Assembly (NCBI RefSeq): GCF_900104695.1
Contig: NZ_FNSW01000001.1
Coordinates: 2,170,001-2,234,000, forward strand
Direction of reading: 5' to 3'
Source: Paenibacillus sp. GP183
GTDB lineage: Bacteria; Bacillota; Bacilli; Paenibacillales; NBRC-103111
DNA: 64,000 nucleotides
Below, one piece after another: positions 43,169 through 46,046 of the stretch. Made by a program: the position numbers and the translations under genes. The notes below the pieces were generated by a model, which had not been told where the DNA came from, made no database searches, and saw only the letters and a program-made list of their open reading frames with translations. The first letter of the stretch is position 1. The number at the start of each line of letters is the position of its first letter.

Positions 43169-43906
43169 TTAAGAACTCGCCAACTTCCAATACCTAAGAA
43201 AATAAGGATACAAGAAAATGGAGGTAAACGCCCCCATCCATTCCCTATGCAGAAACTCTGCTGAACGCTTTCTCATTCGTTGTGGAATGAAGGCCCAATT
43301 TACTGTTCCAAAGGGCAGGTTAAATAGAAGCCGCTTCCTCAAAGTATATAAAGAGACCCCGCGTTCTTGCATAGCAGATGTGTCCTTTTGAATAATTGTT
43401 GCACCTACTTCGGCACATGTAACAACAACACCATCAGTATCAACAACAGTAACACCATCAGCATCAGCAACATCAGCAACATCAGCAACAACCTCACTTT
43501 CTGGAAGTATCACTGCTTGCTTTGGTATTTTAGGGTCATATTTCTTGTGCAACGCTAATTGTATTTTAAACAGCATTAAACGTGCAGTCCGGTAATTCAC
43601 TCCAAGCTCCTCTGCCAAAGTTAAAGTAGTAAACTCGCGTTCAGCATGAATAAGAAGATCAATCGCTTTAAACCAAATCAGTAAAGGTACTTTAGATTTA
43701 TGCATGACTGTACCCGCTGTAACTGAAACTTGAGTCCTACATTCGCAGCATTCGTATAGTTTACGCGTTTTTACTATATAGCACTTCTCGTAGTCGCATC
43801 GTGGACAAACAAATCCAAGGGACCAGCGAGTATTGAATAAATAAGCTTCACAAGCATCTTCACTAGTAAGGTTTTGCGGAAAGTATTGCAAATTCAGATT
43901 ATCCAT
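43169..43906 (-). CDS. IS1595-type zinc-ribbon protein lacking the DDE domain
   Basis: A protein of 245 residues. Residues 10-120 match the IS1595 N-terminal zinc ribbon and helical domain: Cys34 and Cys37 (FVCPRCDY), Cys54 and Cys56 (YECCECRT), then VTAGTVMHKSKVPLLIWFKA. No E-D-E-T type catalytic core follows. In its place is a valine/aspartate repeat (VVADVADVADADGVTVVDTD) and a basic C-terminus (FIPQRMRKRSAEFLHREWMG). It may be a truncated transposase or a reused DNA-binding module. AAGGAG lies 12 bases before the chosen ATG. Confidence 0.65.
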   Translation of the reverse strand: MDNLNLQYFPQNLTSEDACEAYLFNTRWSLGFVCPRCDYEKCYIVKTRKLYECCECRTQVSVTAGTVMHKSKVPLLIWFKAIDLLIHAEREFTTLTLAEELGVNYRTARLMLFKIQLALHKKYDPKIPKQAVILPESEVVADVADVADADGVTVVDTDGVVVTCAEVGATIIQKDTSAMQERGVSLYTLRKRLLFNLPFGTVNWAFIPQRMRKRSAEFLHREWMGAFTSIFLYPYFLRYWKLASS

Positions 43907-44276
43907 AAAGTTAAGCGTCTCCTTACTAGTGATATATACTAATATTATACCAAACATACGTTCTTATGTGAAGTAAAAACAACAATAAATGTTCTGATTG
44001 CACTATAAAATTTTCTTTGACCTCCCAAGTCCATTCAATGCCAGTTTTATTTAGTAACGTGCGCAGCTCCCAGCCCACGTTGTTATGGCGGCGGTCGAAC
44101 CACATTTTGAAAGTTTCTGAGCTAACTACAAAGATTTTGTAGAATAAAGTATTTAAGTAGAAATAACAGTGACTTTAAACACCATTCTCGTTCTTATTTG
44201 TATATATCTCAGAATTTGCAAAATCTACATGCTTCGTCAGAAACGAGCCGTTCGGGATTAGAATGGTTGAGTATTA
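43907..44276. other. Intergenic region with a small remnant frame
   Basis: No convincing gene is present. A 59-codon frame on the minus strand (44105-43926, MWFDRRHNNVGWELRTLLNK) looks protein-like for its first 35 residues and then degenerates. I do not recognise its family. ATATATCTCAGAATT near 44203 recurs near 25575. The whole stretch looks like debris of an insertion. Confidence 0.35.
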
Positions 44277-44318
44277 GGGGGTTCGGGGTTCGGGGTTCGG
44301 GGTTCGGGGTTCGGGGTT
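44277..44318. repeat. 7-bp tandem repeat GGGGTTC, six copies
   Basis: Six head-to-tail copies of GGGGTTC fill 44277-44318 and touch the stop codon of the prenyl synthase gene. Because 7 is not a multiple of 3, copy-number change would shift any frame crossing it. At present the gene stops just before the repeat. Confidence 0.85.
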
Positions 44319-45256
44319 CATTCGAATGGGTCGAATGCTATTTCTTGAAACTGTTCTTTCCATGGAGAGATGGCGGGTATTTGAGTCATGAGTTCTTTTG
44401 CTCTTGATAGCTGGAGCTGTGCGATCATTCTTGAGTATTCAATACACCCGGAATCGGCAATATAGGCCAAGCATTCGAGTTTTTTTTGTAAAAGTTGCTG
44501 CAAGGTTATTGTGCCATCAAAATATTGCTGCAGTTGGGGGAAAGGGCTGTCCGATTCTTCCAGCAGGTATAGGATTGGCAGGGTTCTTTTTTTCTTGAAC
44601 AGGTCGTTTTTGATATCCATTCGCAGTAAATCCGAGATATCGTTATTGATTTGAGCTATCATTCCTATGTAATCGGCTAAATGATTCAATTGATCCCACA
44701 TGGATGGACTAATTCGGAGACTTGGAATCGCTCCAATTCCTATGTAAAAAGCAATTCGAATGAGTACGCAGGATTTTTGCTGCACCATGTTGACGTATTC
44801 TTCTTCTGTTTCAACGGTAAGCATCAAGTCGGTATGCTGTCCATTAATCGCCACACTGATTAATCGGCTAAGCTCTCCTGCATCCGGCAGGGTCAGTTCC
44901 GGGTTCTGCTTGGATAATGCACCTAGTTCAGCAGAAGCCGCCATAAATAGCGCTACCATCGCATTAAGCACTAATTCCTGGGGTTGCTGCATCCAAGGCT
45001 TCTCAGGATTATCCTGATCCTGTAAATCATCCATAATATCAAGCCCCAGTATAACCAGCTCCGTTATAGCTGCCAGCTTTGGGATGAATGGGTTGTTTCC
45101 ACCTAGCATGCGATGGGTATAAATTGTAAGGTTCGACCAAATTGTTTTTTCTTCGGCTTTTGAATCGATGCAAGTTTGTAAGAGTTCGTTTAATAAGGGC
45201 ATTGGATAATAGTGGTTTACTATTCCTTTCATTTCCTTTTGTAAAAGGTGCTCCAA
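44318..45256 (-). CDS. Polyprenyl-synthetase-family protein, ComQ-like
   Basis: A protein of 312 residues with the all-helical isoprenyl synthase fold. The first aspartate-rich motif is DIMDDLQDQD (DDxxD at 76-80). The second is degenerate, NNDISDLLRMDIKNDLFKKK (NDxxD), followed by TLPILYLLEE. This pattern and length resemble ComQ, which prenylates the ComX tryptophan, more than heptaprenyl or farnesyl synthases. The TTG start at 45256 is set by AGGAG with 8 bases of spacing. No ComX precursor is obvious downstream; a 51-codon ORF lies divergently upstream. Confidence 0.7.
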   Translation of the reverse strand: MEHLLQKEMKGIVNHYYPMPLLNELLQTCIDSKAEEKTIWSNLTIYTHRMLGGNNPFIPKLAAITELVILGLDIMDDLQDQDNPEKPWMQQPQELVLNAMVALFMAASAELGALSKQNPELTLPDAGELSRLISVAINGQHTDLMLTVETEEEYVNMVQQKSCVLIRIAFYIGIGAIPSLRISPSMWDQLNHLADYIGMIAQINNDISDLLRMDIKNDLFKKKRTLPILYLLEESDSPFPQLQQYFDGTITLQQLLQKKLECLAYIADSGCIEYSRMIAQLQLSRAKELMTQIPAISPWKEQFQEIAFDPFE

Positions 45257-45321
45257 TTCATTCACTCCTGATCGTTTTCTCAACCAATACCACACTCATT
45301 TTTCTTAAGCAAGGATGTGCA

Positions 45322-45373
45322 AAAAACTTGCGTCAACACGCAATGAAATTTGCGCTGAAGTTTGCAAGTTTTA
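45322..45373. promoter_or_regulatory. Nested dyads in the divergent region, one resembling a ComA box
   Basis: TTGCGT-CAAC-ACGCAA (45328-45343) is a perfect 6-4-6 inverted repeat, close to the ComA box TTGCGG-N4-CCGCAA of B. subtilis. A wider inverted repeat, AAAACTTGC and GCAAGTTTT, encloses it. The site lies between the ComQ-like gene and the small divergent ORF. No comA homologue is in the window, so the binding protein is inferred. Confidence 0.45.
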
Positions 45374-45427
45374 AAGATAATATAAGAGTATACATTTTTA
45401 TCCAAACTTTATTTGGGAGATATAGCG

Positions 45428-45583
45428 ATGAGCAAAGAGCAATTTGACGTGCTGTTTGAGCATGTATTTGAGAAAGCCGTAAACGAAATTTATCAGGATG
45501 CTCCTCCGATACCCTCTATTACCATTAAACAATCCTGGGCATCCATTCAAAAAAATTTCGATGATCAACCTAAAGCCAACTAA
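45428..45583 (+). CDS. Small protein of 51 residues, divergent from the ComQ-like gene
   Basis: MSKEQFDVLFEHVFEKAVNE forms an amphipathic acidic helix, followed by a proline-rich turn (DAPPIPSI) and TIKQSWASIQKNFDD with a single tryptophan. GGGAG lies 8 bases before the ATG and a terminator follows at once, so it is very likely a real gene. It could be a peptide partner of the prenyl synthase, but the Trp is 16 residues from the end, further than in known ComX. No family is recognised. Confidence 0.65.
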   Translation: MSKEQFDVLFEHVFEKAVNEIYQDAPPIPSITIKQSWASIQKNFDDQPKAN

Positions 45584-45616
45584 AACCTGCACTCCATTCT
45601 CTTGGGGCAGCAGGTT
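45582..45616 (+). terminator. Terminator after the 51-residue ORF
   Basis: AAACCTGC and GCAGGTTT form an 8-bp stem with a loop of about 19 bases, followed by a run of T. Confidence 0.75.
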
Positions 45617-45740
45617 TTTTTGTTGGGACGAAAAGGCAGAATTATATGCTTGGGCCGCAAGTTTTTGGGAATGTGTGGATGAATTGCTTTTGTTTCAAAA
45701 AATGGCTAGAGTTAAGTAAAAACGAACCATAAAGGATGTC

Positions 45741-46046
45741 ATGAATATGCTCTTAGCTTGGATACAAATCATTTTGTTTGTTTCCATTGTCATTTTATTA
45801 GGATTGTCCGTCTATCATAGTGTGAAGTCCAGAACACACAAGGATCCCAAAATGCGTGGCATTTATGCAGCTCGAATGAATATATTTATGGGTGCTATGC
45901 TCATTATGATTGCGGTCACCCAGCTGTTCTTTTTCAGCGAATCCGTATTTAGAAGAATCTTTGGGATTGTCTGCTTTTTGTTGGGCTTTTTTAATGTGTT
46001 TGCCGGGATCCGCAATCACGGGTACTTTCAGCGCATGAAAGGGTAA
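45741..46046 (+). CDS. ytpI: YtpI-family membrane protein
   Basis: A protein of 101 residues with three predicted membrane helices (AWIQIILFVSIVILLGL, IFMGAMLIMIAVTQLFFF and IFGIVCFLLGFFNVFAGI). The pattern and its place beside ytoI match B. subtilis YtpI, whose function is unknown. AAAGGA lies 4 bases before the first ATG and 10 before the next (45747), so either could be used. It converges with ytoI, with 2 bp between the stops. Confidence 0.82.
   Translation: MNMLLAWIQIILFVSIVILLGLSVYHSVKSRTHKDPKMRGIYAARMNIFMGAMLIMIAVTQLFFFSESVFRRIFGIVCFLLGFFNVFAGIRNHGYFQRMKG

Follow-up and report, generated by a model that had tools for sequence, protein, structure and literature searches.

The window analysed here is a 64,000-nucleotide stretch of the Paenibacillus sp. 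GP183 genome (C1:2170001-2234000). It carries on the minus strand a predicted orphan tryptophan prenyltransferase of the PalQ/ComQ type (44318–45256), assigned from its PF00348 match (4.8e-11), the family alignment, a tree and an AlphaFold model. A ribosome-binding site accompanies the TTG start codon at 45256, which gives a protein of 312 amino acids; a longer reading frame (44318–45295) with a GTG start at 45295 is also possible. The model (pLDDT 94, pTM 0.91) has the isoprenyl synthase fold, and the protein retains, as the sequence-only reading had noted, the DDxxD motif of isoprenoid synthases in the form DDLQD. The second motif, described earlier as degenerate, is NDISD, and NDxxD is the usual form in this family. 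The family alignment contains 41 invariant columns, DDxQD and NDxxD among them, and the family-invariant residues are retained in the window synthase. In a tree of 28 rows picked by hand, the synthase groups with enzymes encoded beside comX and comP, far from the genome's housekeeping prenyl synthases (99/98; long branches). Grouping with the latter had been named beforehand as the outcome that would speak against a ComQ-like enzyme; this tree distance and the family context instead support the earlier proposal of a ComQ-like peptide prenyltransferase. Comparison with P. eucommiae gives a pN of 0.20 and a pS of 0.89, which points to constraint. On these sequence grounds, the enzyme probably adds a fatty (prenyl) tag to a bacterial signalling peptide.

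Divergent from the synthase lies a 51-amino-acid ORF on the plus strand (45428–45583), which we predict to encode a two-helix protein (model pLDDT 84.8; helices 3–23 and 30–45) and propose, from its relatives, the operator described below and the model, to be a response-regulator output gene. The ORF has its own ribosome-binding site (GGGAG, 45415–45419), a single Trp at residue 37 and a genuine intrinsic terminator right behind it (45582–45618, plus strand; -18.6 kcal/mol, z -4.4), all as previously described, except that the Trp lies 14 residues from the C-terminus and not 16. Its pN and pS against P. eucommiae are 0.28 and 0.53, a sign of constraint here too. A fold search with the model returned no match (best E 8.3), and the protein has no match to any Pfam family up to E 1. 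Further along the plus strand, ytpI (45741–46046; PF14007, 3.5e-18) serves as a landmark of the locus and is followed by an spxR-like gene, whose NCBIfam match is below the curated cut-off. On the synthase side lies an IS1595-type transposase fragment consisting of the zinc ribbon only (43169–43957, minus strand; PF12760, 4e-12; NCBIfam IS1595 below cut-off), and past it genes that we take to be ytrI, ytrH and dnaE by their B. subtilis names. The zinc-ribbon protein has an Asp/Val-rich repeat stretch and no recognised catalytic domain, and is either a fragment or domesticated. A short tandem repeat of GGGGTTC (44278–44326) stands immediately 3' of the synthase stop codon. Neither a precursor peptide nor a kinase was found in the synthase's own gene cluster within the window locus, and tblastn beside the synthase detected no remnant of comX, comP or comA. 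The lack of an adjacent histidine kinase agrees with the sequence-only reading; kinases of the ComP family are encoded elsewhere in the genome.

Relatives of the synthase (E <= 1e-20) occur at 95 places in 80 of the 104 genomes of the bacterial family, and 80 stretches, covering 81 of these places, were retrieved. Their usual layout is comX<->comP-comA-comQ, that is, comX divergent from a gene for a ComP-like kinase, which is followed by a LuxR-type ComA-like regulator and then the synthase. A full comP with sufficient sequence upstream is available for 67 loci, of which 66 have an ORF divergent from comP with a Trp in its last six residues, against 5 of 67 in the opposite-strand control, and in 63 of these 66 the Trp is the last or next-to-last residue. 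Across the 104 genomes, comQ and comA are both present in 77, comQ only in 3, comA only in 3 and neither in 21 (Fisher p 7e-16). A scan of named genomes, in which 80 of 160 relatives were kept, placed the family in Paenibacillus, Cohnella and Chengkuizengella. The layout varies: comA is also present downstream of comQ in L113 and L114, and in L115 the genes follow the canonical B. subtilis order, a W-ended ORF lying between comQ and comP. Some comX-comP-comQ loci contain no comA (L051, L053, L054, L077, L085, L091, L093); of these, L085 and L091 come from genomes in which a comQ-less comP-comA is found at another locus (L319 and L318, respectively), which suggests complementary split loci.

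Between the two divergent genes of the window, the perfect TTGCGT-N4-ACGCAA dyad reported from the sequence is exact at 45328–45343, and alignment together with the B. subtilis ComA consensus (PMC4797271) identifies it as the inverted repeat, RE1-N4-RE2, of a predicted ComA-type operator. According to the passages of that source on ComA binding, B. subtilis sites consist of TTGCGG inverted with N4 and a third element downstream (PMC4797271). Alignment of relatives reveals such a third element, RE3 (TTTGCG; 45349–45354, plus strand), 5 nt after RE2, so that the window operator reads TTGCGT CAAC ACGCAA TGAAA TTTGCG. A Sigma-A-like promoter into the 51-residue ORF follows directly (45355–45383, plus strand), with a -35 element CTGAAG (45355–45360), a spacer of 17 nt and a -10 element TAATAT (45378–45383); it was assigned by eye, was not found by a consensus scan and hardly varies across nine relatives. 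The arrangement RE1-N4-RE2-N5/6-RE3, followed by a -35 CTGANN, 17 nt and a -10, precedes each of the nine close small-ORF relatives. The features of a ComA-type operator, i.e., inverted hexamers spaced by N4 and a third element about 5 nt on, upstream of a promoter, are all present, and the earlier likening of the dyad to a ComA site holds in the form of a tripartite operator aligned before relatives.

The dyad alone is a weak signal only, since this genome has 10 occurrences of TTGCGN6CGCAA compared with 3 for the reversed control; it stands above chance because it makes up two of the three parts of an element aligned before all nine close relatives. We built an operator matrix on six distinct sites and applied it to held-out loci. 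At p<=0.01 it recovered the operator in 15 of the 59 regions lying behind comX; among 21 promoters of small-ORF relatives it did so in 10 (14 at p<=0.05), and the distance between best site and start codon is similar in most of them. A score of >= 12 was reached by 13 of the 21 held-out small-ORF promoters and by 7 of 293 control upstream regions, while the operator is absent or weak (p above 0.05) before seven of the 21 relatives. Related species are not independent, and these counts therefore overstate the number of separate events. A distance of 72 bp separates the dyad from the synthase start, and the synthase could also be under its control. It was also considered as a terminator or attenuator of the synthase, having been flagged as terminator-like on the minus strand; we rejected this reading because no minus-strand gene lies upstream and P. 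athensensis lacks the T run. Within the comX-comP intergenic regions, the exact form of the dyad was not found and a 6-mer search returned common promoter and coding words only. The RE2-RE3 pattern has matches in 68 of the 104 genomes, three of its sites being in this genome, and is thus too unspecific to define a regulon.

Given a ComA-type operator and promoter that stand before the 51-residue ORF and are conserved in its relatives, we interpret the ORF as a gene controlled by a ComA-type regulator and not as a signal. The sequence-only reading had proposed a prenylated-peptide signalling module with this ORF as the peptide; the enzyme, the ComA-type site and the comP and comA genes of this genome support this reading in part, but the true comX are other ORFs and the peptide half is not supported. 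For the ORF to be the prenylated signal of the adjoining synthase, modified at Trp37, is highly improbable in our view, although it adjoins and diverges from the synthase in all three genomes with an orphan enzyme and the Trp is retained in nine of ten aligned rows, window included. Fourteen residues follow Trp37, against at most one in 63 of 66 comX, and PalQ is described as losing activity if residues follow the C-terminal Trp (PMC10853753, in part). The Trp, which is absent at this position from the relatives in G087 and L208, sits in an SW motif common to the N-termini of DUF4367 proteins. Moreover, relatives of the ORF occur with comA alone and no comQ, and also as a distinct gene that follows a comX ending in Trp.

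This distribution is broad. Close relatives are found in nine genomes, each adjoining ytpI with a comQ-family gene at the site, and in P. chitinolyticus, P. lutrae and G087 the relative is a gene of its own that follows a genuine comX ending in Trp, a position also taken by further relatives in L069, L081, L095, L097 and L116. Others adjoin comXPA without comQ (L318, L322, L326, L336) or comA with neither comQ nor comP detected (L317, L320, L321, L323). With L319 included, the small ORF stands beside comA or comP-comA without comQ, and so without the partner expected of a ComX/PalX precursor, in 9 of 20 loci, which were chosen by eye, some since a relative was already known nearby. Occurrence of the small ORF without the synthase had been named in advance as counting against the signal, and relatives beside comA without comQ are such a result for the peptide half. 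Among 30 ytpI loci sampled from 100 genomes with ytpI, only that of P. athensensis has the small ORF; the ORF consequently tracks com genes and not ytpI. The view that the g16 small-ORF relatives are unlinked to com genes proved wrong for several of them, which comA adjoins; those of L170, L171 and L174 stand alone, with no comA in their 3 kb.

A search of the genome for comP and comA, proposed earlier as a check, found both. A complete comX-comP-comA-comQ system lies at C1:4146484-4150621 (4.15 Mb), and a comX-comP-comA locus without comQ, whose comX ends in QVYWN, lies at C1:4211705-4214906 (4.21 Mb). An orphan synthase beside the small ORF occurs in only two other genomes, P. eucommiae and P. 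athensensis, each of which also has a comQ-less comXPA. These three genomes form clades in the trees of orphan comQ (98/97), comA (100/99) and comP (100/100), the final comA and comP trees being those with L044 left out. Such matching clades favour, but do not prove, a partnership between the orphan synthase and the comQ-less comXPA. Speaking against it, a comQ-less comXPA accompanies a complete system in other genomes too, and the split comP and comA are not sister to the ytpI-linked ones. From sequence comparison, we consider it somewhat more probable than not that a split PalQ/ComQ quorum system has one of its halves in the window, with the enzyme and an output gene here and the signal, sensor and regulator encoded at other loci. 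The comQ-less comXPA loci of this genome and of P. eucommiae (L299:9060-9962 onward; L313) have in common a downstream secreted protein and ABC transporter; at the P. athensensis locus (L314) a shared response regulator is found further downstream, and three ComP-like kinase genes adjoin one another (L314:7487-15922), one of them being the divergent partner of the comQ-less comXPA.

The orphan synthase might instead be a second, redundant comQ for the complete 4.15-Mb system, or for both comX. That system is on the same chromosome, and comQ-less comXPA loci are also present in genomes for which no orphan comQ is known (L318, L322, L324, L325, L326, L336); if working, they need a comQ from another locus, so that one comQ may serve several comX and the 4.15-Mb comQ could serve both. 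We regard redundancy as unlikely, since the 4.15-Mb comQ falls in another clade, its own comX is of another sequence type, and we see no reason why that system should need a second enzyme. Somewhat less likely still is that a complete ytpI-linked locus like that of P. chitinolyticus is decaying here, with the synthase as a remnant and only the 51-residue ORF still working. The chromosomal site and gene orientation are the same, minus comX-comP-comA, and the gap holds the transposase fragment; however, the synthase ORF is uninterrupted in three species, with pN low and pS saturated, the family-invariant residues are kept, and the predicted fold is confident. The split comP and comA do not group with the ytpI-linked genes of P. 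chitinolyticus and G087, and a simple cut of one locus is thus not supported; neither the comA nor the comP tree supports a simple transposition of comXPA from the ytpI locus.

Returning to the split-system reading, we infer each functional step from the observed gene content, operator conservation, conserved linkage and tree agreement. The synthase would prenylate the C-terminal Trp of a ComX/PalX-type peptide encoded elsewhere in the genome, the likeliest partner being the comX divergent from comP-comA at 4.21 Mb, as this comX has no comQ of its own. The secreted prenyl-peptide would activate ComP, leading to phosphorylation of ComA, and ComA~P would bind the tripartite operator (45328–45354) and activate the promoter into the 51-residue ORF. 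These steps draw on family knowledge and context. The last step is a guess: the two-helix protein may act on an intracellular regulator, either a sigma factor or a kinase, as suggested by distant similarity and by the presence of Sda in the same position. A profile of the 51-residue family matches the N-termini of four DUF4367 proteins (1.6e-8 to 1.1e-5) over a short helical segment; PF14285 was checked for two of the four, and two are encoded downstream of an apparent ECF sigma gene, as assigned by eye. The small protein may resemble the cytosolic, anti-sigma-like N-terminus of those DUF4367 proteins whose genes adjoin ECF sigma genes. It also occupies the position of Sda (sporulation antikinase) genes in sister loci, and itself lacks the PF08970 match that the neighbouring genes of those loci have. 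In P. senegalensis (L079), the gene behind the ComA-type operator is Sda (PF08970, 2.9e-11), and in L097 Sda (3.8e-15) comes next after a small-ORF relative. More tentatively, and as less probable than not, we suggest a Paenibacillaceae prenyl-peptide quorum system in which a ComA-type regulator switches on a previously undescribed family of two-helix proteins of 45–70 amino acids that act as free anti-sigma-like or antikinase effectors, and Sda likewise in sister loci, with a split into trans-acting loci in three species. If true, quorum state would be wired directly to sigma-factor or sporulation control.

DegQ of B. subtilis has 46 amino acids, and degQ adjoins comQ. It offers a parallel, predicted for the 51-residue protein, as a very small ComQXPA-activated protein encoded at the com locus (PMC10581247, in part); this is an analogy and not homology. 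The remaining components resemble two described systems. The closest described relative of the synthase is PalQ of Paenibacillus alvei, which prenylates a C-terminal Trp (PMC10853753), a likeness by family and description, the PalQ sequence itself not having been compared. Shared with the PalQ-PalX-PalP account, as far as its passages go, are the isoprenoid-synthase-fold Trp prenyltransferase family found across Paenibacillus, a DDxxD motif and both Asp of the second motif, and, at the family loci, a kinase and a C-terminal-Trp precursor in the cluster (PMC10853753). The published cluster comprises three genes, and its main text does not contain the term response regulator; most family loci here add a ComA-type regulator, whereas neither a precursor nor a kinase adjoins the window enzyme. 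With B. subtilis ComQXPA the family shares the enzyme, the Trp-ended pre-peptide, the kinase and the LuxR-type regulator (PMC4008528, in part), as well as a ComA-type operator with N4 and N5 spacing (PMC4797271). It differs in the order comX<->comP-comA-comQ in place of four genes on one strand, and the ComX of the two loci scanned here have no PF05952 match. Passages of the 2014 comQXPA census name one Paenibacillus, P. curdlanolyticus, in canonical order (PMC4008528); the relevant part of another report gives no comQXPA homologues for P. polymyxa (PMC4209062), and ComX (PF05952) is described near lanthipeptide clusters of Paenibacillus sp., a different context (PMC12715929, in part).

This kind of enzyme is thus already known from PalQ and ComQ. 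PalQ is described as an enzyme, and a literature search that had most subscription journals outside its reach found, for PalQ-type loci, no regulator, operator, linked small-protein family or split layout, nor a role in the cell as a quorum system with response regulator and targets. The operator, linked target genes and split loci lead to testable hypotheses about which peptide, regulator, promoters and output belong together. They also correct an easy mistake, in that adjacency to a ComQ-like gene does not by itself make a small ORF the signal.

We note that other genes share this position. Sda-family sporulation inhibitors (PF08970) lie one or two genes behind comX at L079:10312-10470, where Sda is directly behind a predicted ComA-type operator, at L085:2507-2659 and at L097:10601-10753. 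In P. athensensis L044, the operator is followed by a 146-residue protein of no assigned family, and Pfam gave no significant match for the related 145-residue protein of L060. This conserved family of 144–146 residues, without a significant Pfam match, stands behind comX at L060:10469-10906 and at the same place in L041, L042, L044, L061, L062, L064, L065, L072, L076, L082, L085 and L094.
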